This document shows positions 4,752-29,070 of a stretch of DNA of 40,921 nucleotides, piece after piece. Position 1 is the first letter of the stretch, and every line of letters starts with the position of its first letter. The notes beneath the pieces are model-generated. The model ran no database searches. It saw only the letters and a program-made list of their open reading frames with translations, and was not told where the DNA came from. This DNA comes from Bacteroidales bacterium. GTDB lineage: Bacteria; Bacteroidota; Bacteroidia; Bacteroidales; UBA7960. The stretch covers positions 1 to 40,921 of the forward strand of contig PWZB01000104.1 in NCBI GenBank assembly GCA_003567625.1. Reading direction: 5' to 3'. The translations under genes and the position numbers were made by a program.

Positions 4752-6296
4752 ATGGCAAGAAATAATGCTAACAATAAAGAAGAGCCTATAGAAAAACAAC
4801 TATGGAAAGCTGCCGACAAACTCAGGAAAAATATTGATGCAGCTGAATACAAACATGTTGTTTTAGGATTGATTTTTCTGAAATATCTCTCTGATGCATT
4901 TTCAAAACTATATGAAAAGCTAAAAGCCGGAGAGGGTGAATATGCAGGAGCTGATCCGGAAGACAAAGACGAATACAAGGCAGAAAATGTGTTTTTTGTG
5001 CCTGAAAAAGCAAGGTGGAGCAATCTGCTTTCGAAAGCTAAGCAGACAACTATAGGAAAAACGGTTGATGAGGCTATGGATGCTATTGAAAAAGAAAACC
5101 CGTCATTAAAGGGAGTTTTGCCTAAGGTTTATGCCCGCCAAAATCTTGACCCTACAAGTTTAGGAGAGCTTATTGACTTGATTGGGAACATTGCATTGGG
5201 AGATACAAAAGAACGAAGCGCAGATATTCTTGGCCATGTGTTTGAATATTTCCTCGGTGAATTTGCTCTCGCCGAAGGAAAAAAGGGAGGCCAGTTCTAC
5301 ACTCCCAGAAGCGTAGTAGAGTTACTTGTTGAAATGCTTGAACCATACAAAGGAAGGGTTTTTGACCCTTGCTGTGGCTCAGGAGGAATGTTTGTACAAT
5401 CTGAAAAATTTGTTCTGAAACATAGCGGAAAAATAAATGACATTTCCATCTATGGACAAGAAAGCAACCAGACAACATGGCGACTGGCAAAAATGAATCT
5501 GGCAATCCGTGGTATTGACAGCTCACAAGTAAAGTGGAACAACGAAGGTTCATTTTTGAATGATGCCCACAAAGACTTAAAAGCCGATTATATTATTGCC
5601 AATCCACCATTTAATGTGAGTGATTGGAGTGGTGATTTGTTGCGAAAAGACGGGCGTTGGAAATATGGTGTTCCGCCAACATCCAATGCAAACTATGCAT
5701 GGATACAACATTTTCTTTATCATCTTGCACCAAACGGGCAAGCAGGTTTTGTATTAGCTAAAGGTTCTTTAACCACAAAAACAGGTGGCGAAGGTGAAAT
5801 ACGAAAAGCTTTGGTAGAAGCTAACTTGATTGATTGTATTGTTAACTTACCGCCAAAATTGTTCTTAAATACACAAATTCCCGCTTCACTCTGGTTTATG
5901 AGTAGAAGCCGGGAAAATGGCAAATTCAGAGACCGGAGTGGGGAGATACTTTTTATTGATGCCCGCAATTACGGACATTTAATAAATCGCAGAACAAAAG
6001 TTCTTTCAGAAGACGATATAAAGGAAATTGCCGAGACATATCATAACTGGCGAAACCCTGATGGAAATTATGAAGATATTAAAGGTTTTTGTAACTCAGC
6101 ACCTGTTGACCGGGTAAAAGAAATGGATTATGTGCTTACACCCGGGCGATATGTTGGTTTAGCAGAGGAGGAAGATGATTTTGATTTTAAAGAGCGGTTT
6201 TCACAACTGAAAAATGAATTTGAGGAGCAGTTGAAGCAGGAAGAGCAACTAAATGAAAGAATAACAGAGAACTTATCAAATATTCAAATACAATAG
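4752..6296 (+). CDS. hsdM: Type I restriction-modification DNA methyltransferase subunit HsdM
   Basis: [77 protein letters not shown]. Confidence 0.97.
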
Positions 6297-6299
6297 CTT

Positions 6300-6809
6300 A
6301 TGGCTAAACAGAAAAAAAAGTTCAGTGATATTATACCATCAGATATGGTCGATTTAGTCTATACTATTAGAGGGCAACGTGTAATGCTCGACCGTGATAT
6401 TGCTATGATGTATGAAACGGAAACAAGGACAATAAATCAGCAAGTAAAAAGAAATGCTGAACGGTTTGATGAAAGTGTGCATTACTTCAAACTTAATGAA
6501 GAAGAGTTTGCTGAGTTTAGGGAAATCTTGAAATCACAAAATGTGACTTCAAGTTGGGGAGGTGTAAGAAAGCCTCCAAGCGCATTCACTCAAAAAGGAA
6601 TATATTTGTTAGCAACTGTATTAAGGTCAAAAGCAGCGCACGAAGTAACAAAGCATATTATAAACACATTTACCGAAACTCAAAAGATATTGGATGAGAA
6701 CAAGCAATTAAAAAAGTATATTACAAACCTTGAGAAAAAAGCTTCTGAGCAAAATAAAATTATCAAAACATTGTACCTGATTTCAAATGAATTAAATAAA
6801 AAAACTTGA
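6300..6809 (+). CDS. ORF6N domain-containing protein
   Basis: IRGQRVMLDRDIAMMYETETRTINQQVKRNAERFDES ORF6N signature. Confidence 0.85.
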   Translation: MAKQKKKFSDIIPSDMVDLVYTIRGQRVMLDRDIAMMYETETRTINQQVKRNAERFDESVHYFKLNEEEFAEFREILKSQNVTSSWGGVRKPPSAFTQKGIYLLATVLRSKAAHEVTKHIINTFTETQKILDENKQLKKYITNLEKKASEQNKIIKTLYLISNELNKKT

Positions 6810-6844
6810 TATCACAATTTGTGATTTCAAGTTGAAATGCTAAG

Positions 6845-7621
6845 ATGAGTGAACTTAAATATGAAAATAGAATTGTAGCTTTTATAGACATTCTGGGTTT
6901 TGCAGAAACCATAAATAAAACGGATAAGGATGGAAATGAACAAATCAGCATTCTATCAAAGGCATTTCTCAGGATCCGTGAATTGCTTGGCATTGATGAA
7001 CCCGATGAAGACGTGGCACCAACAAGGGAGATAACACAATTTTCCGATTCAATTGTTGTTTCTTTTGCTGTTAACGAAGATAAAGAATTCAAATTTCTAC
7101 TTGAGGAATTACTCCATCTCCAGATCGAGCTATTGAAATATGACATTCTTATTCGAGGTGGCATTTATTATGGTTCTCTTGTACATAATGACAAGCTGTT
7201 GTTTGGCCCGGCCCTGGTGAAAGCTTATCGCCTGGAAAATGAGGCAGCCAACAGCCCCAGGATTATATTACCTAAAAGCATTAATGAGTTTGTGGCTGTT
7301 AAAAACATCGAAAAACTGATAGCCAACGATGAAGACGACTTTTTCTACCTCGACTATTTTGATTGCTGGAACCTGGAACTGATATTTCCTTCCGATGCAG
7401 CCTATGTTGAACATATGATGCGTCTGAAAACAAAAATATCTAAAGGGCTCAAAACCCAAAAACCGGGTATTTACAGCAAATATGGATGGATGAAAAGCAA
7501 GTGGAATAAAACAATAAAAAAATACAAGACGGCTAAAGAATTGAAGAAGATGAAACAAAATGAAGCAACAGAACTCTATGAATTTTTTGTTAATGAAAAA
7601 CCAATTGTAACTTCAATGTAA
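6845..7621 (+). CDS. Hypothetical protein, possible nucleotide-cyclase-fold protein
   Basis: VAFIDILGFAETI, TQFSDSIVVSF, RGGIYYGSLVH spaced like class III cyclase metal-binding elements. Confidence 0.6.
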   Translation: MSELKYENRIVAFIDILGFAETINKTDKDGNEQISILSKAFLRIRELLGIDEPDEDVAPTREITQFSDSIVVSFAVNEDKEFKFLLEELLHLQIELLKYDILIRGGIYYGSLVHNDKLLFGPALVKAYRLENEAANSPRIILPKSINEFVAVKNIEKLIANDEDDFFYLDYFDCWNLELIFPSDAAYVEHMMRLKTKISKGLKTQKPGIYSKYGWMKSKWNKTIKKYKTAKELKKMKQNEATELYEFFVNEKPIVTSM

Positions 7622-7693
7622 TGGTAATGAATGAGTGGAAGGAAACTAAATTAAACAAACATATTTCCCAAAACTTATCTAAAATCAATTTTA

Positions 7694-7933
7694 ATGAGCA
7701 ATAAAAACACATACAACTTCACGGTAGGCGAACTCATAAAAATACTTCAACAATACCCCGAAGATATGCCGGTGTTGGTTAGTGGTTACGAAAACGGCTA
7801 CGAAAACTTTTACCATCCGTTTGTTAAAAAAGTAAAACACCTGCCCGAAAACCCCTATTGGGATGGACAGTTTCAACTTGACGATAATGGAAAAGAAGTG
7901 CTGATTTTAGAAAGGGAGGTGAGGGATGACTGA
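7694..7933 (+). CDS. Small hypothetical protein in RM cassette
   Basis: Intact 79-aa ORF overlapping hsdS start by 8 bp. Confidence 0.6.
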   Translation: MSNKNTYNFTVGELIKILQQYPEDMPVLVSGYENGYENFYHPFVKKVKHLPENPYWDGQFQLDDNGKEVLILEREVRDD

Positions 7934-9101
7934 GTGGAGGGAAGCAGCATTACAAGATATTGCTTATGTGAATCCAGCTGAAAGCATCTCTAATGGAACA
8001 AAAGCAAAGAAAGTTCCAATGGAATTACTTGAACCCTTTACAAAAAGAGTTTCAGGTTATCAAATTGAGGAATATAAAGGTGGCGTAAAGTTTAAAAACG
8101 GAGATACAATTATTGCAAGAATTACACCGAGTCTCGAAAATGGTAAGACGGCTTTCATTGACATTTTAGAAGATGATGAAATTGGATTCGGTTCAACAGA
8201 GTTTATAGTTTTAAGGGAAAAAGAAGGACTAAGTGATAAAAATTTCTTGTACTATTTAGCTTTATCACCTGATTTCAGGGAAACAGCCATACTTTCAATG
8301 ACAGGAAGTTCTGGCAGACAACGGGTTCAGACCGATGTTGTAAAAGAACACTTGTTTAATATTCCTCCCCTTCCCGAACAACGCGCCATCGGCTCTGTCC
8401 TTTCCAGTTTAGACGACAAAATAGACCTGCTCTACCGCCAGAACAAAACGTTGGAGCAAATGGCTGAGGCGCTGTTTAGGCAGTGGTTTGTGGTGGGGGC
8501 TAGTGAGGATTGGGAAGTTGGTAAATTAGGCGATGTTATAGAATTATTTGATAGTATGCGAATTCCTTTATCTAAAATGCAAAGGGATAAGATGAAAGAT
8601 GGAAAATTATATCCTTATTACGGAGCTGCTTCAATAATGGATTACGTAAATAATTATTTATTTGATGGTGATTACATTTTAATTGGGGAAGACGGAACGG
8701 TAAGAACTGATGAAGGTTATCCGATTCTTCAATATGCAACTGGGAAATTTTGGGTGAATAATCATGCACATATTCTTAAAGCAAAACCACCTTACAATAA
8801 TTTCTTCATTTGGAATTATCTATCAAAAAAGAAAATAGACGAAATTGTTACTGGAGCTGTACAACACAAAATTAATCAGGGAAATCTTAAATCTTTAGAT
8901 TTTCCGAAATATCCAATTAAGTTAATTGAGCAATTTAATAATCAAACCAATAATATGTTTGATAAAATCAATAAAAATAAAACCCAAATTCGCACCCTCG
9001 AAAAACTGCGGGATACATTATTGCCGAAGTTGATGAATGGGGAAATACGTATAGAGGCGCACGGCCGTGCGTCTCAGAAAAAAGGCCGTGATGACAGATA
9101 A
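7926..9101 (+). CDS. hsdS: Type I restriction-modification specificity subunit HsdS
   Basis: Two TRD halves, IPPLPEQRAIGSVLSSLDDKIDLLYRQNKTLEQMAEALFRQWFV, LEKLRDTLLPKLMNGEIRI. Confidence 0.95.
   Translation: MTEWREAALQDIAYVNPAESISNGTKAKKVPMELLEPFTKRVSGYQIEEYKGGVKFKNGDTIIARITPSLENGKTAFIDILEDDEIGFGSTEFIVLREKEGLSDKNFLYYLALSPDFRETAILSMTGSSGRQRVQTDVVKEHLFNIPPLPEQRAIGSVLSSLDDKIDLLYRQNKTLEQMAEALFRQWFVVGASEDWEVGKLGDVIELFDSMRIPLSKMQRDKMKDGKLYPYYGAASIMDYVNNYLFDGDYILIGEDGTVRTDEGYPILQYATGKFWVNNHAHILKAKPPYNNFFIWNYLSKKKIDEIVTGAVQHKINQGNLKSLDFPKYPIKLIEQFNNQTNNMFDKINKNKTQIRTLEKLRDTLLPKLMNGEIRIEAHGRASQKKGRDDR
9054..9075. repeat. REP-like palindrome
   Basis: GAGGCGCACGG/CCGTGCGTCTC, 11-bp arms with one mismatch, immediately 5' of the RAYT start. 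Confidence 0.7.
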
Positions 9102-13593: not shown

Positions 13594-14221
13594 CGCTAAG
13601 AAGTTTTATTTCGTACGGTTGCACATGCTTAGAACGTGCGGGGCGTAAATCAAGATCCGTTACTACCACTTTATCGTAGCCGCCCTCAAATAACAAGTCG
13701 GTAATTACCGATTTGATTTCAATAGCTTCATTTTTGTCGCATATTTCTTTGATCATCGCTATCTCATCCTCGGGATATATTCTGTCCTGGCCAAGAGCCA
13801 GTCCCTGTATTGTTATCTGATAATCTTCTGTGCTCACAATTTCCTTCACGGCACCTTTTCCTGCAGTCATCGGTGTATCAATAATGACCTTACGTCTTCC
13901 GATTCCCAGGCGGCATATAGGCAGATGATGGCCATCGAGCCAAACCGGCATAAAGCTTATCCGGCCGCTTGGTGTGGTAGCATAAAACGGTGTACCTGTG
14001 CGCCAGCTATGCAACCTTACAGGCTTTACCCCGGAGCCGCTTAAGCCGGGTATGTCAGTATCCAGCAAGGTTGCCGGGAAAGGCAACCCTTTATACCCAA
14101 AAGACAGCTGCCAAAGCATGTTAAGGTCAAACTCCGCTGCCTTGCGGATCTTATACTCAGTTATTGTACCTGAAAAATTAGCCATATTTTTTATCCTGTT
14201 ATGCCGCGCTTGCAGTTGCAT
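13565..14221 (-). CDS. Phage tail-associated protein, DUF6046-like
   Basis: Conserved position between tape measure and hub; start probably internal MANFSG. Confidence 0.5.
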   Translation of the reverse strand: MQLQARHNRIKNMANFSGTITEYKIRKAAEFDLNMLWQLSFGYKGLPFPATLLDTDIPGLSGSGVKPVRLHSWRTGTPFYATTPSGRISFMPVWLDGHHLPICRLGIGRRKVIIDTPMTAGKGAVKEIVSTEDYQITIQGLALGQDRIYPEDEIAMIKEICDKNEAIEIKSVITDLLFEGGYDKVVVTDLDLRPARSKHVQPYEIKLLSDEVFDIIID

Positions 14222-16511
14222 TTGCGCTGTTTATTGATTGCATAAGAGCTTCCACTACCTTACTTTTGAGCTCTTCCATACTTTCACCCGTTGTTTGTGT
14301 GTGAATGGTGAAGCTTTCTATCAGGTTGCCCATGTTGATATTCACGTTTGTTGCCCGCCTTCCGCCACCTGTTATGGTGCTGACGCTGCGGCCGAGCTCG
14401 GAATCGAGACCCAGAATACCTTTTTTATCTAAAAGAGTGCCGTATTCTTCGTCCAGGTCCTCGGTGTCAAAATCATCATCATCGTCATCATCATCGTCAT
14501 CATCGCCTTTTAAATATTTTTCTAACGCTTCCCGTTCCGCCATGCCTCTGTCAACTGCTCTTTGTGCTCTATTCAACGCTGCACGTGCTGCTCTTTCAGC
14601 TGTTTTTGCTGCTTTTTCAGTCTTATAGCCTAAATAGGTATCAGTATCTTCTTTCTCTCCGCTTTCAATTTTTTCTAATTGTTCTCTTGCCTCCTGTAGT
14701 TTTAGCCTAGATTCAAGTAATCCTTCCTCAATCTCTAATATCATCCCCTCAGCAGCCTTAACCCTTGCCTGCTTTAATAAGCTCTCAATATATTTCTCTG
14801 AAGCTTCCGTCAACTTCTCAGTTTGTGCCTCTTCAAAAGTCAAATTTTCAAAATGCTCAGGGCTAATCTCAACCAGCCTGTCATAAGCTGTCCTTTTTTG
14901 CTCAAGCGATGCATTCTGGTCGTGCACCACGCTCGTGAGCCTTTCAACTTCTACCTTTTGACTTACAACTGCTCGTTGAGCACGATGCCTCACATCCTGC
15001 ATAGCTTGCTCAGCCGCCGTAGCTTCATCAGTCCTTCGCCTCAAAAGAACATACGCCCCTGCAATAGCACCAATACCCGCAACAATCCACCCGATTGGTG
15101 AAGCCAGAAAAGCGGCATTGAACGCCATCTTAGCTGCGGTTGCAAGCTTTATTTGTCCGGTTGCGGCGAGCACTGCAGCCCGGTATATTGTTTTTGCTGC
15201 AGCTACTGTTTTGAGTAAAACAGCTTTGGCTGACAATGTTTTCATGTAAAGCACGGTTCGTTTAGTAAGCGCTATCATACCAACTCCAAGCCTTACAGTG
15301 CCCTGGTATAATTTAATAAACCCTACCCGCATAGCTTTCATTATCGGTATAAACTGCGTTGCCATTTGTGCAGATTGTGCGAAGGCTGCGGTCATTGGCA
15401 ACACCCTTTGTGTAACGTTGAACACCGACACTCCGAAATCCTTAAACCTGGCCTGCAGGCGCTTCATTCTCTCGGCATGCGTTCCCATGATAATCTCGGC
15501 CTGCTCAACAACTGTGTTGGTACCGGTGATCTTCTCAGTAAACTCATCTGCTCCTTCAGCTCCCTTCACCATGGCTATGGCGCTTGCAAAATGAGCTTCA
15601 CCAAACAACAGCTGCATCATTGACGTATCATCAACTATCTTATTAAGGGGCTTAAGTCTTTCGGTAAGCGTAAGGCTTGTATCAGCAAGATGGTGAATAT
15701 CAACACCTGCCTCTTTCAGAGCATCGGCCGTACGTTTTGGCATGAATTCCGCCCTTGATAACCTTCCGAGTACTGCCTGGAGTGCAGTACCTCCTTCGGC
15801 GCCCTGGCGACCGGCACGACCTAATATCTGAATATAAGTGAGTGTCTCTTCAAACGAAACCTTAGCGGTTTTGGCAGCCATACCGCTTCTTTCAAGAGCT
15901 GCCGTCATGGGCTGTACTTCCTCGCTACCTTCTTTGGCTGCAGCACCCATGGCGTTCATCATCCTTTCCATTTCTGCTGCTGCTGCTATCGGGTCTGACA
16001 TATCAACCTGGAACTGGTTCATTGCAGTTGTTAAAGCACCGGTTGCAGCAACTGTGTCGCCTCCAAGTACCTTTTCGAGTTGCTTAGCGCTTCTCGACAT
16101 CTGATCCAATACTTCGGGAGTTTGTGCCAGCTCGGGCCCGAGCTGGCTTAATATCATTTTATAGGCTTCGACACCTTTGGCGGCATCGGTACCAAATTCC
16201 TTAGCGGTCTTCCTGGCACTTGCGCCAAGTTTTTGTATTTCTTCATCTGTTAGCCCGGTTATCGCTTTAAGATCTGCAAGGCTGCTTTGAAATTCTACTC
16301 CCGGGCGTGTCAGGTTATCAAGGCTGCGGTGTGCTCCCTCAATTACCTGGGCGGCCTGGTTGAAATAAAGAAATTGCTGTCCCAGGTCCCTGAACGATGT
16401 CTGCGACTGCATCAGCTTACGATGCATACTGCCAAGTCCGCCGCCAACCCTGTTCATGGTTTGGCTAACCTGGTCACGTAATCTTATGGTAAATTCGTAA
16501 GCGTTATCCAT
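14199..16511 (-). CDS. Tail tape measure protein
   Basis: 770 aa; TP901-type core, hydrophobic segment ASPIGWIVAGIGAIAGAYVLL, coiled coil. Confidence 0.9.
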   Translation of the reverse strand: MDNAYEFTIRLRDQVSQTMNRVGGGLGSMHRKLMQSQTSFRDLGQQFLYFNQAAQVIEGAHRSLDNLTRPGVEFQSSLADLKAITGLTDEEIQKLGASARKTAKEFGTDAAKGVEAYKMILSQLGPELAQTPEVLDQMSRSAKQLEKVLGGDTVAATGALTTAMNQFQVDMSDPIAAAAEMERMMNAMGAAAKEGSEEVQPMTAALERSGMAAKTAKVSFEETLTYIQILGRAGRQGAEGGTALQAVLGRLSRAEFMPKRTADALKEAGVDIHHLADTSLTLTERLKPLNKIVDDTSMMQLLFGEAHFASAIAMVKGAEGADEFTEKITGTNTVVEQAEIIMGTHAERMKRLQARFKDFGVSVFNVTQRVLPMTAAFAQSAQMATQFIPIMKAMRVGFIKLYQGTVRLGVGMIALTKRTVLYMKTLSAKAVLLKTVAAAKTIYRAAVLAATGQIKLATAAKMAFNAAFLASPIGWIVAGIGAIAGAYVLLRRRTDEATAAEQAMQDVRHRAQRAVVSQKVEVERLTSVVHDQNASLEQKRTAYDRLVEISPEHFENLTFEEAQTEKLTEASEKYIESLLKQARVKAAEGMILEIEEGLLESRLKLQEAREQLEKIESGEKEDTDTYLGYKTEKAAKTAERAARAALNRAQRAVDRGMAEREALEKYLKGDDDDDDDDDDDFDTEDLDEEYGTLLDKKGILGLDSELGRSVSTITGGGRRATNVNINMGNLIESFTIHTQTTGESMEELKSKVVEALMQSINSANATASAA

Positions 16512-16545: not shown

Positions 16546-16746
16546 ATGAAAGGCAAGTTGGTATCGGCTATTGTTTTTATTGCTACTCTTGTTTATATAC
16601 TTATGTGGGTATGGCCGCCTTTGTGGTGGCAGGTACCCGTTGCAATATTTTTAGCCGGCACCAGTGCAGGTATTGTTAGAGGATGTATGAACGCCAGGCT
16701 GTCTGACCTTTTTCAATCTTCCGATAAGAACGACGACAAATCATAG
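16546..16746 (+). CDS. Small membrane protein encoded antisense to the tail operon
   Basis: 66 aa with two hydrophobic segments filling a gap with no minus-strand ORF. Confidence 0.4.
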   Translation: MKGKLVSAIVFIATLVYILMWVWPPLWWQVPVAIFLAGTSAGIVRGCMNARLSDLFQSSDKNDDKS

Positions 16747-16921
16747 TTCTTTGTAGCAAGCTCCATCTCTCTTATTCGTTCCAGGTGTCCTATTTTAACG
16801 CCCAGCTCTTCATCGGTCAGTTTCTCTGGCTCATCACATATCCTGTAATATCTCAACATTGCATGCAGGAAGCCGAAATAATCCCTGCCGGCATTTTCCC
16901 TGGCGCCGGCTACAGCTTTTT
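16713..16921 (-). CDS. Frameshift extension of the tail assembly chaperone (-1 frame)
   Basis: Open -1 frame KKAVAGARENAGRDYFGFLHAMLRYYRICDEPEKLTDEELGVKIGHLERIREMELATKNYDLSSFLSED* with no start, joined at AAAAAAG (16916-16922). Confidence 0.8.
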
Positions 16922-17233
16922 TATGTAGCTCTCCTGTATTTTGACAAGCTCCGTAAGCTTGCTTGATGCAGCAAGAAAGAGCTCATCGTCTTTTTTTATC
17001 TCCTCATCACCTCCAAGCCAGCATGATTCCAGGATCGCCTCGTTCCATTTATAGGGATCTTCGCCCCCCGTAATTGATGCAAATGAAAGTTCCTTCCTGC
17101 CCGGCTTTTTCAGATAACACACCTTTCCGGCAGTGCCAATTTCAAAGATCTCGCCGTGCTTTTGCTTCCACTTTGCTATCTGTTCGGCTGTAGCTTGCCC
17201 GCTTGCAGCAGGCTTTTTTTTATCCTTTGTCAT
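16910..17233 (-). CDS. Tail assembly chaperone, short form
   Basis: 107 aa between tail tube and tape measure; ends ESYIKKL* at the slippery site. Confidence 0.75.
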   Translation of the reverse strand: MTKDKKKPAASGQATAEQIAKWKQKHGEIFEIGTAGKVCYLKKPGRKELSFASITGGEDPYKWNEAILESCWLGGDEEIKKDDELFLAASSKLTELVKIQESYIKKL

Positions 17234-17244
17234 AATATAATTAA

Positions 17245-17664
17245 TTAACCGCTATATTCAACTCCGAGTGCAATAAACGGAAGTGCTATTTCCATAAACT
17301 TATCGTTTTGCCTCAGATTTTTAGACACTTCCGAGATTGAAGCAAACTTCACCACGTCAACAACGACAGGGCCGCCGCCTTTAGGCACATAAGCGACCAC
17401 TATATCAAACTCGAAGTCTGTTATGTCATCGTATCCGTTCTGTCGTGCAAAACGTATCATAGCTTCAAGCTCGCTCTGCATAAGCGTGAGTGTGCCGTCA
17501 TAAGACTTATTGCCGTACTGAATGCCCATGGGCTTGTCACCTGCACCGTAAACAGCTTCTTTCTCCCGTGCCGGCTTATACTCAATGCCTCGTATGCCTA
17601 AAAACTTACGACCAAGAGCTACTACCTCTAAATTTGACCAGCTGTATTCTTTTGAATTAAACAT
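17245..17664 (-). CDS. Tail tube protein
   Basis: 139 aa directly downstream of the sheath; YGAGDKPMGIQYGNKSYDGTLTLMQSELE. Confidence 0.75.
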   Translation of the reverse strand: MFNSKEYSWSNLEVVALGRKFLGIRGIEYKPAREKEAVYGAGDKPMGIQYGNKSYDGTLTLMQSELEAMIRFARQNGYDDITDFEFDIVVAYVPKGGGPVVVDVVKFASISEVSKNLRQNDKFMEIALPFIALGVEYSG

Positions 17665-17700: not shown

Positions 17701-18879
17701 CTATTGCTCCAAAGCCGGGTTTTTAAAACCGAGCTTAACTACGATCTTCTTGAGTGTTCCCATCGGTGTGATCTCGCAGACAACTGCCAGTTCACCGGTA
17801 GAAAGGACATTCTGCCCGGGGTCAACATAAGCTTCGAAATTGCTTATTTCATTTGACATAAGCAAGTCAACCGCATTTTCGATCCGCTTTTCAAAGTACT
17901 TACATGTAGACGCGGGCAAATTGCCATCTTCATCAACCTCAACATTATCAAGAAGCTCGTCAACATAAGTAACGTAGGTAATAGTGATTGCTTTGTCGAT
18001 CGTCCGTCCAAGCGACAGGCTGTTATAGTCGTCGGTTAGCGGTGCGGCTACGGGGTCATCGTTGAAATAGAACCCGTTTTTGCCATGATAGGCACGTGGA
18101 AAGATAAATCCTTTCGTATGAAGTGCTCCCCACATGCTTTCGCAATCTTGTGCTTTACTGCCATCTGTCATCCATGCACTAACAGCTATGGCACCGTCTT
18201 TCACGCGGCCCAAGTTGCGATGTACAGCGATATCTGCCATCCTTCCTATTGTAAGTCCAATGGCAGCAAGCCCATCTTCATTATCAGCCCACATTACTAT
18301 ACCCACACGGTTGTAGCTTGATTCGCGCAGATTAATAAGGTTACCGGTTTCGCCGTCCCATGCGAAGGCAGGCAATATAGCCCTTGCAGGCTTATAATCG
18401 TCCGCATAATCATCAAGAAGCGATTGAAGGTTTGCCATAGCAGCTTCTACGTCTGCATCAATCCCATTCGTAATTGTAGGTGAATACATTTCGTCCGGCT
18501 TACGATTAATGCCCAGCACCCTTATCTTGCCACCGGCTGCATCAAGCAGCTTTTTTACGATATTGCCGGCTTCGGTTTTATCGCAAACGGTTTCGAGGGT
18601 TGTGGTGTCTGAATATAGTATAATCCATAATTCAGCACCATCGCCGGCTTTGTCGTAAAATGCTTTTATACATTTATCAGCCAGCGGGTTATTTTCGGCT
18701 GTGATTTTAAGCGTTTCAAGATCACGTACACTGAATATCTGCTTAGGCTCATTAAGTCCAATGCCGTCAGTGGCTGAACCGCTTAGCACCAGCCCGGCGA
18801 TGCCGTCCTGCGTGGGTGTAACCCCGCCCAGCCCGCCTTCGCCTAATTGTATATCAACCTTTGGTAATCCCATGATCAA
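17701..18879 (-). CDS. Contractile tail sheath protein (DUF2586-like)
   Basis: MGLPKVDIQLGEGGLGG...DGIAGLVLSG; C-terminal strand-rich region VVCEITPMGTLKKIVVKLGF. Confidence 0.8.
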   Translation of the reverse strand: MIMGLPKVDIQLGEGGLGGVTPTQDGIAGLVLSGSATDGIGLNEPKQIFSVRDLETLKITAENNPLADKCIKAFYDKAGDGAELWIILYSDTTTLETVCDKTEAGNIVKKLLDAAGGKIRVLGINRKPDEMYSPTITNGIDADVEAAMANLQSLLDDYADDYKPARAILPAFAWDGETGNLINLRESSYNRVGIVMWADNEDGLAAIGLTIGRMADIAVHRNLGRVKDGAIAVSAWMTDGSKAQDCESMWGALHTKGFIFPRAYHGKNGFYFNDDPVAAPLTDDYNSLSLGRTIDKAITITYVTYVDELLDNVEVDEDGNLPASTCKYFEKRIENAVDLLMSNEISNFEAYVDPGQNVLSTGELAVVCEITPMGTLKKIVVKLGFKNPALEQ

Positions 18880-22632: not shown

Positions 22633-23121
22633 ATGACATCAGAGATTAAGAAGAAAAAACGGGTAAGGGATGAAAGTAAATACGAACATGCCTGGCTTTT
22701 GTTTTCACAAAAAGTAAGCCGGCAGGAAATTGCCCGCAGGGTAGGTATTGCCGAAAGAACACTTACACGTTGGATTACAAATGACGACTGGCACTCAAGA
22801 CGTGCTGCAGCAAACATAACTCGTGATGAGCTGATCAATAAAACCCTTAAGCTTATTGACGGGCTTTTGGAAAAGAGCCTTGAGGATGACAGTGCTGACA
22901 GCAGCGGACTGGCTGACAAGCTTAGCAAGCTTGCCGGGGCAATAAAAAACCTTGACAAGCAAGCCAACGTGGTTGATATCATCCAGGTCTTTATGACTTT
23001 CAATCGCTGGCTCATGAGCCGGCAGGCTATTGATGCCACGCTTACTGACGATCTGATCAAAACAATCAACAGGTATCAGGATACATTTATCAATGAACGT
23101 TTAGCACATCAAAAAGAATGA
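22633..23121 (+). CDS. Terminase small subunit-like HTH protein
   Basis: SRQEIARRVGIAERTLTRWITNDDWHSRR; directly upstream of TerL. Confidence 0.75.
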   Translation: MTSEIKKKKRVRDESKYEHAWLLFSQKVSRQEIARRVGIAERTLTRWITNDDWHSRRAAANITRDELINKTLKLIDGLLEKSLEDDSADSSGLADKLSKLAGAIKNLDKQANVVDIIQVFMTFNRWLMSRQAIDATLTDDLIKTINRYQDTFINERLAHQKE

Positions 23122-24635
23122 ATTTATCGCAGGCACAACAGGCAATAAAGCGGTGGCATGAACACTTCAAAAAAATACAAAGCCACACCACGCTAACCCT
23201 TTTTGAAACACCGGACGAAAAGCAGGTGCGTATAAAAAAGGCCAAGAAGGATTTTGCCTGGTTTGTCAGCTATTATTTTCCGCACTATGCCGAATATGCC
23301 ACGCCAAACTTTCATGTCAGCCTGGCAAACTATATTAAAAAACACCCCGAATCGCAAACAATAGTAAGATGGGGGCGGGGGCTCGGCAAATCGGTTGTAT
23401 GCGATATATTCATCCCGATATGGCTCTGGATCAATGGAGAGCCGGTATATGAATTGCTGATCGGTAACAACCTTGATAAGGCAAAAATACTGCTGGGTGA
23501 TGTCCAGCTGGAATTCGAAGCAAACGAAAGGCTTATACATGACTATGGCAGGCAAGTGGTTGGTGGTAACTGGACTGACGGCTACTTTGTTTGCAAGGAT
23601 AAGTTTATCGGTAAAGCAATCGGAATGGGGCAGGATGTAAGAGGTTTGCGGAGTGGTGCACAGCGTCCCAATTATATTGTTGCTGACGATCTGGAAGATA
23701 AAGATACGGTAAAAAACCCCAAGCGGCAAAATGAAGCCGTTCAGTGGATAGAAAGGGCTGTAATACCCTGTATGGACGGGCCAATACAAAGATATGTACA
23801 CCCGAACAATAATTTCGCTCCGCGTACAATACAGGAAGAGTTATGGCAAAAACATCCCGACTGGAAAATGCACCGTGTAGATGCATGCCCGGACCCTGAC
23901 CGCAAACCCGTATGGTATCAGAAGTACACACAAAATTATTACAAGAAACGGGAAGAGGCTATCGGCACTATAGCGCTCGATGCTGAATACAATAACAGTC
24001 CCTTTATCGAAGGCAGTGTATTTACGGCAGACATGATCCAGTGGGCTAAGCCTCCAAGGTGGGATCATTTTCAGATGCTTATCGGTATGTGGGACCCGGC
24101 TTATTCCGGGAAAAATGATTATAACGCTGTAAGGATATGGGGGTTGTATAAACACAACTTCTGGCTTATGAAAAGCTTTGTCAGGCTGTGTAAAATGAGA
24201 GACGCGCTTTGGTGGATGTACAACATCAATGCTGAAATGCCGCAAGGTGCATACATACACTGGAAGGTTGAAAGCCAATTCTGGAATGATCCTCTGCGGG
24301 AAGCTATTGCACAGGTAGAGGTAAAATGGCAAAAGATGCCTCATCCGCCTGTCAACATCTCAATTATACCAAGCTCGAAGGTTAAAAAGATTGACAGGCT
24401 GTTGAGCATGCATCCATATTATCAGAACAGGCGAATTTATTGGAATATAAACGAAAAAGCCAATAACGACACACAGGCAGGAATGGCTCAGCTGCTTGGA
24501 ATAGAACCGGGATACCGGACACCCGACGATGCTCCCGATGCTGACGAGCAGGCTATAAGCCAGCTGGTGAAAGCAGACAAACAAATGGCGTTCGACCCTG
24601 TGATTGGTAAAAGAGAAACAACGCATTCATGGTAA
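23118..24635 (+). CDS. Terminase large subunit (Mu gp28-like)
   Basis: RWGRGLGKSVV Walker A, YIVADDLEDKDTVKN Walker B, nuclease MWDPAYSGKNDYNAV. Confidence 0.93.
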   Translation: MNLSQAQQAIKRWHEHFKKIQSHTTLTLFETPDEKQVRIKKAKKDFAWFVSYYFPHYAEYATPNFHVSLANYIKKHPESQTIVRWGRGLGKSVVCDIFIPIWLWINGEPVYELLIGNNLDKAKILLGDVQLEFEANERLIHDYGRQVVGGNWTDGYFVCKDKFIGKAIGMGQDVRGLRSGAQRPNYIVADDLEDKDTVKNPKRQNEAVQWIERAVIPCMDGPIQRYVHPNNNFAPRTIQEELWQKHPDWKMHRVDACPDPDRKPVWYQKYTQNYYKKREEAIGTIALDAEYNNSPFIEGSVFTADMIQWAKPPRWDHFQMLIGMWDPAYSGKNDYNAVRIWGLYKHNFWLMKSFVRLCKMRDALWWMYNINAEMPQGAYIHWKVESQFWNDPLREAIAQVEVKWQKMPHPPVNISIIPSSKVKKIDRLLSMHPYYQNRRIYWNINEKANNDTQAGMAQLLGIEPGYRTPDDAPDADEQAISQLVKADKQMAFDPVIGKRETTHSW

Positions 24636-25015
24636 AAGAAAGAAAAGATTACGGGATTATTTATAAGGGTTTTGTTTGGTTAAAAACTCGGTGGCGTCGA
24701 TGGCAAAAAAAACGGCAAGGAAAGAAAATTGAAAAACTGATTAAAGAGGCAGAAAGATTAAAAGAGCTAACCGGCTATAAATATTTAGTACTGCTATTTA
24801 TGGGCAGGTATAGGGTGTTGCCGAAACAAATGATCAAGACATGGTGGAAAGCCGGTATGTTCAAGCAAGGAGTAACATTGAGCATGATTGAAAAAAAAGC
24901 GATATATGTAACCAAACCGAAAACAACAAAAAAGGAAAACAATGGCATACTTAACAAAAGAAGAGCTGACAACACATCTGCGAAGCGAATCAATTGCGTC
25001 AATAACACGCAATGA
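24629..25015 (+). CDS. Hypothetical basic protein
   Basis: 128-aa ORF overlapping TerL end and the gp36-like start. Confidence 0.4.
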   Translation: MVKERKDYGIIYKGFVWLKTRWRRWQKKRQGKKIEKLIKEAERLKELTGYKYLVLLFMGRYRVLPKQMIKTWWKAGMFKQGVTLSMIEKKAIYVTKPKTTKKENNGILNKRRADNTSAKRINCVNNTQ

Positions 25016-25349
25016 CAACGCGTTGGCACAAAGCGCAATAGATGGTGCAATAACCGAAGCAAAGGGTTACCTTTCACGCTTCGACACTGATGCTATATTC
25101 AGCGCAAAAGGCAGCGACCGCAATGAGCTGCTTTTAATCTTTGTGAAAGATATTGCTGCCTGGCACCTGGTGAATATCGTTAACCCTAATATCGAGATGA
25201 AGCTTCGCCAGGACAGGTACGAAAGAGCTATAAGCTGGCTAAAAGATGTACAAAAGGGGATTGTAGAACCGGATTTGCCAAAGCCGGAAGATGTTGATAC
25301 AAGCCTTACAAAATATGGAAGTATAGAAAAAAATGAATATGACTGGTGA
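24942..25349 (+). CDS. DUF1320 / Mu gp36-like protein
   Basis: AYLTKEELTTHLRSESIASITRNDNALAQSAIDGAITEAKGYLSRFDT. Confidence 0.85.
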   Translation: MAYLTKEELTTHLRSESIASITRNDNALAQSAIDGAITEAKGYLSRFDTDAIFSAKGSDRNELLLIFVKDIAAWHLVNIVNPNIEMKLRQDRYERAISWLKDVQKGIVEPDLPKPEDVDTSLTKYGSIEKNEYDW

Positions 25350-25368
25350 GCAGTAAAAACAAACAACA

Positions 25369-26655
25369 ATGACACAGACACAGATATTGGACAAATACGG
25401 AATGCCTCTTAATGCCGTGACAATGGCAGACAAGGAGTATACAGACAAGCTGAAAAAAATTGTAATTGACCTGGCAGTTCAAACGAGAAACCTTACAAAG
25501 AAGGATATAAGGTCATGGCGCCAGGCATGGCAGATGGCAATTGATCATGAAAACCCGCGCCGGCGGGAGCTTTATAATGTTTACACGGATACCGACATAG
25601 ACGGTCATCTTACCGGCACAATATCGCAGATCAACAACTCTATAAAACAACGTACATTCAAGATCATAGATAAGAAAAACAAAAAAGAAAAAGAAGATTT
25701 GACCGAGCTTCTTGAAGCCGAATGGTTTAAAGATTTCTTGAATTTTGCACTTGAGTCACGTTACTGGGGACATTCGTTGATCCAGCTTGGAGACGCGGTA
25801 ACTGTGGACGGGAAGCGTAAACTTACGAACGTTGAACTTGTGCCACGTGTTCATGTAATACCTGAATATGGTGTAATTTTGCGTGAACCCGGCGATGAAA
25901 TTGACAGCGGTATTAACTACAGGGAAGGCAGGCTCACGCAGTGGATTGTCGAAGCGGGCAATCCCTATAACCTCGGGCTATACCTGAAAACATCACCACA
26001 TGCTATTTCAAAGAAAAACATGGCTGCATTCTGGGATACGTTCGGGGAGCTGTTCGGCATTCCAATAAGAACCGCAAAAACCAGTAACACAAACCCTTCA
26101 GAACGCTCTAAGCTAGAAAAGATGCTGCGCGATATGGGTGCAGCGGCATGGGGCTTGTTCTCTGAAGGTACAGAGATAGATATACGAGAAACCAATACCC
26201 GCGATTCTTACCAGGTATTTGATCAACGGATACTGAGGGCAAACTCGGAAATGTCGAAAATTGTACTTACAGAAACTATGACCACCGACGACGGATCTTC
26301 GTACAGCCAGAGCAAAATACATGAGAACATGTTTAAGCAAGCTGTTGGAGCCGAGGCGGACAGGATCAAGGATATTGTCAATAACCAGCTGCTGCCAAAA
26401 CTGGCTAATCTTGGATTCCCTTTTACACCAAATGATGTCTTCGAGTGGGATTATACCTATGAATATACACCCGAGCAACGAACACAGCTCGAACGCACCC
26501 TCCTTGATTATTTTGAAATAGACCCGGAGTACTTCATCGACAGGTACAACATACCTATAACCGGCGTAAAAGAAAGATACGGACTGTCTTTGAGTAAAGA
26601 CCGGGTAAAAGAGCTGCTTGAAAAAAAAAGCACCGACCCGGATTTTTTCGTATAG
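25369..26655 (+). CDS. Portal protein (DUF935, Mu gp29-like)
   Basis: LYNVYTDTDIDGHLTGTISQINNSIKQRTFKI..., WVIEAG-type core, NTNPSERSKLEKMLRDMGAAAWGLF. Confidence 0.9.
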   Translation: MTQTQILDKYGMPLNAVTMADKEYTDKLKKIVIDLAVQTRNLTKKDIRSWRQAWQMAIDHENPRRRELYNVYTDTDIDGHLTGTISQINNSIKQRTFKIIDKKNKKEKEDLTELLEAEWFKDFLNFALESRYWGHSLIQLGDAVTVDGKRKLTNVELVPRVHVIPEYGVILREPGDEIDSGINYREGRLTQWIVEAGNPYNLGLYLKTSPHAISKKNMAAFWDTFGELFGIPIRTAKTSNTNPSERSKLEKMLRDMGAAAWGLFSEGTEIDIRETNTRDSYQVFDQRILRANSEMSKIVLTETMTTDDGSSYSQSKIHENMFKQAVGAEADRIKDIVNNQLLPKLANLGFPFTPNDVFEWDYTYEYTPEQRTQLERTLLDYFEIDPEYFIDRYNIPITGVKERYGLSLSKDRVKELLEKKSTDPDFFV

Positions 26656-26675
26656 GGGCAGCCCGCAGCTGCCCT

Positions 26676-27944
26676 GTGCACGATGCAACGGAGAATGATT
26701 ATTTCAAATACCAGTCCCTGTTCAATGCTCTTTCGGATTTCCCAACACATACCCTTGCATCGCCCCGCAACCGTGAAGTGGTCAATAAGATCATTGAAAG
26801 CTCATCGAAAGGCAATTTCAAGAATACATTTTCGGAAACTACCAGAGTATATACCGAAAACTACCACGACGCGATAAGCTCCGTGTGGGAAGATCCTGCG
26901 CCCGGCTCTGATAACTATAAACACCAGGCAGCTTTTAAACACAACGCTGCCAATGTAGGCGCCTATAAGGCTCACAGGATTTCAGATGAGCTGATAAAGG
27001 CTGAAAGCAAAGAAGACAGGCAGAAGCTTGTAAAAAGATACAATCAATACCAGGCTGTTGAATATAATGCCATGACGGCACGCTGCCGCACAGCAAGGCA
27101 GATGCTTGGATTTGAAGATACAAAAGACCTGTATCCTAACCTGGAATGGATCAGGAGCCGATCGGCGAATCCCCGTGAAGCTCACCTGAGATTAGTCGGC
27201 CTGGTGTTGCCAATTAACCATGAGTTCTGGCAGGATAACCAGCCCGGCAACCTGTATGGCTGCAAATGCGACTGGCATCAGACAGATGCAGCGCCTGCAC
27301 AGCGTACGCCAAAAAGTGTGCCGCCTAGCCCGGGACTGGACGGCAACCCGCTTAATACCGGCAAGCTCATTACACGTAAACATAGCTATTTTAAAAAGGC
27401 AGTTAAAAAGGATGTTAACCATGCCATACATGATTTGCCGGATGATGCTAAATGGCTTGAGTTTGAATTGCAGGGCAAACCGGTGAAGGCGCATATGCTT
27501 CACGATTCAGGCGAACTTAAAAAGAATATGCAGATAACTAATGATTTGGTTAATTCATCTAACAAGATAAAATCAGTTGAACTACTGCCAGAAGTACATA
27601 AAGATGACTTTGACATAAAGAAAAGCTATTATCCAAAGTCTTTTAAGTTTAAAGACAAAAATAAAAACCCTGACGCAACAATAACTTTAACAAATAACAG
27701 GAAATGGGTAGCTGATTTTAAAGAAATAGGCTCTCACTTAGGGGCAAATTTAGGTGTTGCCTCTAAGCAGGCTGATTATGCAATAATAAAACTCAAAAAA
27801 GGATATGAGCCAAGCGATAAAATGATTAAAGATAACGTAACAAGCAAAGTTAAATCAGGTGAAATAAAAGGAGCAATCGTGTTTAATGATAAAAGTGAAG
27901 TAAAATATGCTCATCCTGCTCATATAATCACAACAGCCAAATAA
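26676..27944 (+). CDS. Mu gpF-like head morphogenesis protein with C-terminal toxin-like domain
   Basis: SPP1 gp7/Mu F core (RTARQMLGFEDTKDLYPNLEWIRSRSANPREAHLRLVGLVLPINHEFWQDNQPGNLYGCKCDW) plus about 150-aa lysine-rich CdiA_C-like tail. Confidence 0.88.
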   Translation: MHDATENDYFKYQSLFNALSDFPTHTLASPRNREVVNKIIESSSKGNFKNTFSETTRVYTENYHDAISSVWEDPAPGSDNYKHQAAFKHNAANVGAYKAHRISDELIKAESKEDRQKLVKRYNQYQAVEYNAMTARCRTARQMLGFEDTKDLYPNLEWIRSRSANPREAHLRLVGLVLPINHEFWQDNQPGNLYGCKCDWHQTDAAPAQRTPKSVPPSPGLDGNPLNTGKLITRKHSYFKKAVKKDVNHAIHDLPDDAKWLEFELQGKPVKAHMLHDSGELKKNMQITNDLVNSSNKIKSVELLPEVHKDDFDIKKSYYPKSFKFKDKNKNPDATITLTNNRKWVADFKEIGSHLGANLGVASKQADYAIIKLKKGYEPSDKMIKDNVTSKVKSGEIKGAIVFNDKSEVKYAHPAHIITTAK

Positions 27945-27964
27945 CACCGAAATGTTATTTGGCT
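27935..27964 (+). terminator. Hairpin at gpF stop codon
   Basis: AGCCAAATAACA-ccgaaa-TGTTATTTGGCT, perfect 12-bp stem; includes TAA stop. Confidence 0.65.
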
Positions 27965-28061
27965 ATCATTAGCACCAACTCGCAAGTCAGTACTTAGTTT
28001 TTACAAACTCAATTACAAATATAATAATAATTTTTCAATTGTCAAGAAAAATCGAATAAAA

Positions 28062-28535
28062 ATGGCTTACGATTTCAAAATATTGGTTCAAAAGTTCCGG
28101 AAGCTTTCGCGTGAAGCCCCGCAGTTTATGGACAATGTGGCGCCACGAGCAATAGGTACGGTATCGGCAAGATATTTTAAGCAGGCATTTCAGCGTGAGG
28201 CATGGGACGGTAAGAAGTGGCCGGAAGTGAACCGGCGCAAAAACACCTATGTGCGTAAAAAAGACGGCAAGGTTATGAAAAACTATGCCAAGGGCGCTGC
28301 AAGGATACGCCCGATACTTACAGGGCCCACCGGCGACCTTGGCAGAAGCCCCCAGTTTGAGCCGGGCAAGTCAAATAAGGACAGGGTGGTGGTATCTGCT
28401 AAATCGTACGGCGAGTTTCATAATAAAGGTAAAGGCAACCTGCCCAAACGGCAGTTTATGGGAGTAACAAACGAACTCAGCCAGCTTATTGCTGAAGAGC
28501 TAAATAAACAATTTCATCAATTTTTTAACAGGTAA
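28062..28535 (+). CDS. Phage virion morphogenesis protein (Mu gpG-like)
   Basis: FKQAFQREAWDGKKWPEVNRRK...ILTGPTGDLGRSPQF...YGEFHNKGKGNLPKRQFMGVT. Confidence 0.85.
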   Translation: MAYDFKILVQKFRKLSREAPQFMDNVAPRAIGTVSARYFKQAFQREAWDGKKWPEVNRRKNTYVRKKDGKVMKNYAKGAARIRPILTGPTGDLGRSPQFEPGKSNKDRVVVSAKSYGEFHNKGKGNLPKRQFMGVTNELSQLIAEELNKQFHQFFNR

Positions 28536-28572
28536 TAACAATGAAAGTTCACCAAATCAAAATTATCAAAAA

Positions 28573-29070
28573 ATGGAATCAATCTATCAAAAAACATCAA
28601 AACGCCTGGACGAAAAGGTCGGTGATCTGAAATGGATTGACCTGGACAGCGGGCAGCTCGACTACCGGGAATACCGTGCATCAATTGATTTCCCGGCAAC
28701 GCTTATTGATATAGCTTACCCAAGCTGCGATGATATGGGGCACTCGGGCAGGCAGGATTGCAATGTAACCGTTACGATACGCCTTGTATCTATGGTATTT
28801 GACGAAACCAACATTGCGGCGCCCGAAGACGTAAGAGAAAAAGGCCTGGGGCAATTCAGGCTTATTGATCAGATACAGAAAGCACTGCAGCTGTGGCAGC
28901 CGGATGATGATAACATGGATGTTTTCAGGCGCAGAAGCATTACGAAAGAAAAACGTGAAGACGGACTGACCGTGCATCGCATAGTGTACAGTACAAGCTA
29001 TTACGATGACAACAGCGCAGCTGAAGAGCTGACCAAGATCGAGCCTGACATAAACATACAAACAAAATAA
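28573..29070 (+). CDS. Head-tail connector region protein (hypothetical)
   Basis: ORF after gpG; YRASIDFPATLIDIAYPSCDDMGHSGRQDCNVTVTIRLV. Confidence 0.6.
   Translation: MESIYQKTSKRLDEKVGDLKWIDLDSGQLDYREYRASIDFPATLIDIAYPSCDDMGHSGRQDCNVTVTIRLVSMVFDETNIAAPEDVREKGLGQFRLIDQIQKALQLWQPDDDNMDVFRRRSITKEKREDGLTVHRIVYSTSYYDDNSAAEELTKIEPDINIQTK

Follow-up and report, generated by a model that had tools for sequence, protein, structure and literature searches.

A probable -1 ribosomal frameshift in the tail assembly chaperone gene of a Mu-like Bacteroidales prophage and the variation of its slip site in Bacteroidota phages

We posit with high confidence that a 107-aa gene of a Mu-like prophage in a Bacteroidales genome encodes a tail assembly chaperone, and that a -1 ribosomal frameshift at A_AAA_AAG near its end would yield a 173-aa fusion. 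Such a frameshifted chaperone had been proposed from this stretch of DNA by itself (hereafter the original prediction), and the gene order, the conservation of both reading frames, the closely pinned junction and, less strongly, the predicted fold all point the same way. The decisive evidence that the cassette exceeds chance is its conservation in relatives and not the heptamer alone. The comparison shows that both frames and their junction are conserved, and that the relatives have more predicted downstream structure and more SD-like elements than expected.

Prophage setting and the short product

The window (the whole stretch of DNA that was analysed, 40,921 nt) is an entire contig of a 2.38-Mb metagenome-assembled genome that is 88.9% complete. 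It contains a Mu-like prophage with genes for a transposase (PHROG 310), an AAA ATPase, DUF3164, Portal_Mu and a Mu F-like protein, together with a Mu-like protease, a DUF2586 sheath, a tube, a tape measure protein and baseplate genes. The terminase, portal and Mu F-like genes are located on the plus strand (23118-29070), and the remaining structural and early genes on the minus strand. The type I restriction-modification genes HsdM and HsdS adjoin the prophage, with an ORF6N-domain gene between (4752-9101, +). Close to its C terminus the tape measure protein (14199-16511, -) has 11 aspartates in a row (KGDDDDDDDDDDDFDTED). The gene for the Mu-type portal has GAT TTT TTC GTA TAG at its end (26622-26700, +), with T_TTT_TTC in phase; its -1 frame continues directly into the Mu F-like head gene, whose sole early start is a GTG at 26676. 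This junction is possibly a second frameshift, or merely a pair of overlapping genes.

According to Pfam and PHROG assignments, the gene order in the window is sheath, tube, 107-aa gene and tape measure (Table 1), so that the 107-aa gene is flanked by the genes for the major tail (tube) protein and the tape measure protein, as in systems of the lambda G/GT type. About 150 relatives were collected from viral and genome collections and dereplicated to 123 loci, which derive from several orders and, where the record names a host, nearly all from Bacteroidota. The tube and sheath genes are located upstream in 115 of these loci and the tape measure gene downstream in 114, the exceptions being mostly truncated contigs. 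The family was found in 74 of 325 genomes of the Weeksellaceae group, 11 of 400 Flavobacteriaceae and 18 of 400 Bacteroidaceae.

Table 1. Positions of the chaperone cassette and its neighbours in the window, and loci of the related +1 clade.
Feature	Position	Strand	Basis
Tail sheath, DUF2586	17701..18879	-	PF10758, E 1.6e-49; PHROG 907
Tail tube protein, upstream neighbour of the chaperone gene	17245..17664	-	PHROG 9206 and 4579
0-frame ORF, 107 aa, putative short tail assembly chaperone (lambda gpG-like role)	16910..17233	-	PHROG 19076; relatives 36-58% identical
SD-like AGGAG, 8 nt upstream of the heptamer	16931..16935	-	sequence; enriched at this position in relatives
Candidate slippery heptamer A_AAA_AAG, 0-frame phase	16916..16922	-	sequence; slip point common to relatives
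0-frame stop TAG, two codons past the A-site codon	16910..16912	-	sequence; spacing kept in most relatives
Hairpin GCCGGCG/TGCCGGC, 7 bp, 10-nt loop	16887..16910	-	-12.3 kcal/mol; begins 5 nt after the heptamer
-1 frame (KKAVAGAREN...SFLSED*), predicted helical C-terminal extension, lambda gpT-like position	16713..16922	-	alignment; AlphaFold2 model
Tape measure protein, downstream neighbour of the chaperone gene	14199..16511	-	PF10145, E 2.1e-23; PHROG 28
+1 clade loci	L256-L277 (16 loci), L387-L415; e.g. L384 near 10557		conserved +1 frame

A Pfam search returned no family for the 107-aa product, and the PHROG that it matches carries no function. Tail assembly chaperones are highly diverged, so that a sequence match to a named family is helpful but not defining. 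The AlphaFold2 model of the short product is confident (pLDDT 93.3, pTM 0.80; 67-sequence alignment), and its best PDB match by Foldseek is 3fgx (E 3.9e-3, probability 1.00), whose title says uncharacterised. This same entry is the only one returned by a PDB sequence-profile search, where the match is weak (E 0.56). The HK97 tail assembly chaperone gp13 (2ob9), matched weakly (E 0.89, TM 0.43), is the sole other phage tail protein near the top of the PDB fold matches, and several named tail assembly chaperones are found among the weaker matches in BFVD. The fold matches lean in this direction but are not strong; together with the gene order they fit a tail assembly chaperone, here of a Bacteroidota prophage that is Mu-like and has a contractile tail.

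Frameshifted tail assembly chaperones of dsDNA tailed phages have been described, with lambda gpG/gpGT as the model (Xu, Hendrix and Duda 2004, as cited in PMC5009743 and PMC2628397). The present gene is similar to it in its place between the major tail protein and the tape measure protein and in having a short product and a -1 fusion, which in the window is predicted. It differs in that the family lacks Pfam sequence similarity, the slip core varies (GAA, AAA or GTA before AAG) and the 0-frame stop usually follows only two codons after the slip. The tail chaperone of phage Mu has been reported to shift by -2 at about 2.2% (PMC3498833, PMC2628397). The phage in the window is Mu-like and carries its chaperone gene in the same genomic place, but its conserved second frame is -1, and the Mu-type -2 (+1) arrangement was not found there. 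The original prediction had counted Mu among the phages with frameshifted chaperones upstream of the tape measure; the -1 shift that it gave for the window differs from the -2 reported for Mu itself.

The two reading frames and their junction

The 3' end of the 107-aa gene reads ...CAG GAG AGC TAC ATA AAA AAG CTG TAG on the minus strand. The predicted heptamer can be read directly in the sequence at 16922-16916, in the slippery phase near the end of the ORF; it has the X_XXY_YYZ form of canonical bacterial -1 cassettes, in 0-frame phase and within the overlap of the two frames. A -1 slip at this site would add 67 residues after IKK, and the -1 peptide that had been given for it proved exact. 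AlphaFold2 models the added domain as helical (pLDDT 88.5; 62-sequence alignment). This domain has no family in Pfam or PHROG and no match in a fold search, and an Rfam search gave nothing credible.

AAAAAAG alone is common, with 50 copies in the window. Avoidance of the in-phase heptamer, considered as possible evidence of slipperiness, is absent from the host (39 observed versus 25.7 +- 5 expected in 72,468 codons of host ORFs), and because it is not avoided in the slippery phase, the heptamer may be only weakly slippery by itself in this host. Among the tRNA genes of the genome (88.9% complete), tRNA-Lys UUU was found and CUU was not, so that AAG would be read by a tRNA that prefers AAA. 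The full arrangement is rare: among ORFs with at least 90 aa, 2 of 68 in the window and 2 of 295 in host DNA have a canonical heptamer in phase within their final 20 codons and, beyond the stop, a -1 ORF that runs for at least 45 codons.

In 120 of the 123 loci the -1 frame continues beyond the 0-frame stop for 50 codons or more. Its translation carries the conserved motif LRYYxHIxDPDxLSDEEWA...ELxxIRKxE, and differences between relatives are distributed as 0.50/0.38/0.64 over positions 1, 2 and 3 of its codons. In 28 loci the overlap of the frames is just 13 nt long, leaving only the last four codons as possible places for the slip. The Winoviridae phages pippi8-1 (L015) and lotta8-1 (L018) and the phage fF4 (L217), an inducible myovirus of F. 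columnare (PMC7761591), have both frames, with A_AAA_AAG as the slip site in pippi8-1 and G_GGA_AAG in fF4.

The GenBank records of these three phages annotate the two halves as separate hypothetical proteins. In line with this, the -1 ORF could stand alone as a small gene whose translation begins at a start of its own, by coupling or re-initiation past the TAG, and the window does contain an ATG at 16859, late in the -1 frame, that opens a 48-aa ORF. The original statement that this frame has no start of its own is thus correct only in part. In the relatives, 22 of 122 -1 ORFs lack an ATG, and 8 lack ATG, GTG and TTG alike, so that independent initiation cannot be general. Moreover, conservation (KALxxA) extends to the residues that immediately follow the slip and precede most of the ATGs, and a -1-frame start lies within reach of the SD-like element in none of the 46 loci that have one. 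We therefore consider a separate gene very improbable. Two frames conserved as protein, the second without a general independent start, are what characterizes the lambda G/GT type, and the gene model of pippi8-1, lotta8-1 and fF4 should be a frameshifted pair.

Slippage of the RNA polymerase on the run of A residues could also join the frames, and runs of six A in the window and of six to seven A in about one third of the relatives would allow it. In about half of the family, however, the junction is unchanged although the site is G_GAA_AAG (4 A) or G_GTA_AAG (3 A), and ribosomal slippage is in keeping with the structure and the SD-like elements near it. Runs of three to four A are too short for polymerase slippage, which excludes it as the general mechanism; for the cassette as a whole we rate it lower still than a separate gene. 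Least credible of all is that the -1 frame has decayed or reflects an error in sequencing, a reading that the comparison contradicts: a few relatives have short -1 frames (30, 38 and 43 codons in L050, L077 and L081), but the reading frame and protein motif are kept in 120 of 123 loci from several orders.

The predicted hairpin is present and begins 5 nt after the heptamer, within the 5-8 nt spacing of canonical -1 cassettes, though its stability is unexceptional for its own composition (z -0.58 versus dinucleotide shuffles). It pairs 16910-16904 with 16893-16887 and hence differs in detail from the 6-bp stem with a 12-nt loop that had been described. As stand-alone evidence the hairpin of the window was dropped on account of the shuffles. 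Family-wide, the 57 nt after the slip site have an excess of predicted structure (mean z -0.83 +- 0.13 relative to a null of recoding that is synonymous in the -1 frame), and two stretches further downstream have none under the same null (z -0.10 and -0.02). Judged by these predictions, downstream structure is selected across the family.

From these features we infer how the fusion would be produced, in what ratio, with what movement of the tRNAs and for what role in tail assembly. The majority of ribosomes would terminate at the TAG (16912-16910) and release the 107-aa short chaperone. A minority would slip by -1 at A_AAA_AAG, where tRNA-Lys (UUU), occupying both the P and the A site, would re-pair to AAA AAA, helped by the hairpin downstream and probably by the AGGAG upstream. 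The slipped ribosomes would produce the 173-aa fusion, which ends in the helical domain. If the roles follow those of lambda gpG/gpGT, the short form may coat the tape measure protein and the fusion may recruit tube subunits. In systems of the lambda type the fusion is a minor product that binds both tape measure and tube and is missing from virions.

The upstream SD-like element

The AGGAG upstream of the heptamer was missed in the original prediction. Its predicted duplex with the 16S tail CACCUCCUUUCU has -7.4 kcal/mol, although this tail may not be that of the window's host, whose own 16S tail is not in the genome assembly (88.9% complete). E. coli dnaX combines A_AAA_AAG with an upstream SD-like element and a downstream hairpin (PMC3711429, PMC5009743), and all three recur in the window, arranged as in dnaX. 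It differs from dnaX in the gene and its purpose, in that the dnaX shift truncates the product while that of the window would extend it, and in that ribosomes of Bacteroidia are reported to sequester the anti-SD (PMC8710568, PMC9976891).

In the relatives, SD-like 5-mers are found 8-10 nt before the P codon in 46 of 123 loci, compared with 27.7 +- 4.0 expected under synonymous recoding, and none of 300 synonymous shuffles reached 46. The duplex energy with the 16S tail at the site is -6.39 kcal/mol versus -5.02 kcal/mol expected (z -6.7 to -7.1); other segments of the chaperone gene range from z -2.9 to +3.8, so that the synonymous null is somewhat too narrow. Lys-Glu is encoded as AAG GAG in 26 of 64 cases at the site and in 138 of 920 at other places of these loci. 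Bacteroidales give the clearest signal (43 loci, z -5.9, excess about -2.4 kcal/mol), with SD-like elements in excess of the synonymous-codon null. The Weeksellaceae, whose 16S tail reads CAUCUCAUUUU, have such an element in 1 of 25 loci, with no significant excess (z -1.4), and in these 25 loci elements matching their own altered anti-SD are not enriched either. This comparison is consistent but weak, because only 2.7 SD-like loci were expected by chance.

An origin of the excess in codon-pair preference or shared ancestry, unrelated to pairing with the 16S rRNA, would concern the SD-like signal and not the frameshift itself. The position was picked after inspection, the rows are related, the null is narrow as described above, and the signal weakens upon thinning below 55% identity (z -1.3 to -2.8 with n of about 10 in Bacteroidales; z about -2 with n of about 40 for all rows). 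Against this stand the strength of the signal at the site, the local preference for AAG GAG, the Weeksellaceae result and the Bacteroidales effect, which stays near -2.4 kcal/mol after thinning below 65% identity (z -4.0 to -4.8). We regard an origin without 16S pairing as unlikely on balance, but as a serious competitor. A similar case is known from the same class, in that prfB +1 sites of Bacteroidia keep a perfect SD-like AGGAGG despite the reportedly sequestered anti-SD and are lacking in Weeksellaceae (PMC8710568). The chaperone family parallels this case in having an SD-like element upstream of the shift site in a class with occluded anti-SD, without function being proven by the parallel. 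The two differ in that prfB is a host gene shifting +1 at a stop codon, whereas the window has a phage gene with a predicted -1 shift.

Slip-site drift and a change of direction

A canonical X_XXY_YYZ with both frames open is present in only 48 of the 123 loci; 71 have a Z_ZZN tetramer only, and 4 have no recognised site. The original prediction expected both frames and the heptamer to be conserved in homologous prophages and took the lack of the heptamer as grounds for rejection. The second frame is indeed conserved as protein, but the demand on the heptamer was too strict, because most relatives lack a textbook one. The codon pairs before Leu-stop are GAA_AAG (41, preceded by G), AAA_AAG (25), AAA_AAA (14), GTA_AAG (about 20) and rarer forms, and the site type changes at least 48 times on a tree of 122 rows with many unresolved forks. 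By this comparison it is the slip point that is conserved and not the heptamer itself. Single-slip sites of the form NNA_AAG are known from IS1222 (G_CGA_AAG, A_AAG; PMC5009743). Many relatives resemble it in having only NNA_AAG, mostly with GAA or GTA before AAG, unlike the window, whose own site is a full heptamer. A search by heptamer only would miss about 60% of the family.

Within the same chaperone family, a nested clade has a -1 frame of just 4-30 codons and a conserved +1 frame of 55-59 codons, with the gene order unchanged (sheath-tube-TAC-TMP). It was sampled by 16 genome loci from a Weeksellaceae genome search and 23 dereplicated viral loci, the two sets overlapping in some sequences. 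The predicted slip core is invariably TTT_CGC or TTT_CGT. In the 31 tallied sites, which are those with a TTTTTT run, the codon after TTT is always CGC or CGT, with CGC in 27, compared with a background use among Arg codons of 8-11% for CGC and 14-22% for CGT. Re-pairing by +1 from UUU to UUC fits best, because a -2 slip would need a T run, which members with TAC TTT CGC lack. A UUU_CGU core is used for the +1 shift of influenza PA-X (PMC3498833), and TTT_CGC has been proposed for the tail chaperones of HF1-group haloviruses (PMC7230728). The +1 clade has the same core, and HF1 shares the gene type as well; the likeness concerns the relatives and not the window, and differs in that here one homologous family uses either -1 or +1. 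In a tree of 59 rows all +1 members fall into one supported clade (100/99) nested among -1 members, which calls for one switch of direction; whether -1 would be the ancestral state depends on the root.

We give about even odds to the combined proposition that the Bacteroidales anti-SD, though considered occluded, stimulates the -1 slip in the chaperone gene, and that the site is fluid, ranging from A_AAA_AAG to NNA_AAG with one -1/+1 switch at UUU_CGC/U, while the fusion strategy is kept. Frameshifting in tail chaperones is a familiar phage device; what we describe is most likely an instance unannotated in this Bacteroidota phage family, with unusual variation there. No published frameshift in these Bacteroidota phages was found in the open-access literature, where the gene family, the drift of its slip site, the SD-like signal and the -1/+1 switch all appear to be undescribed. 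On the sequence evidence the cassette of the window is well supported, and the SD-like signal and the switch of direction would be the parts most worth testing. The finding provides a probable function and a correct gene model for an unannotated protein pair that is deposited as two unrelated hypothetical proteins in many Bacteroidota prophages. The switch offers a single gene in which the direction of frameshifting can be compared between homologues. If functional, the SD-like signal would serve as a natural reporter to ask whether the anti-SD of Bacteroidales ribosomes can become free in the course of elongation, a question raised by the prfB case (PMC8710568).
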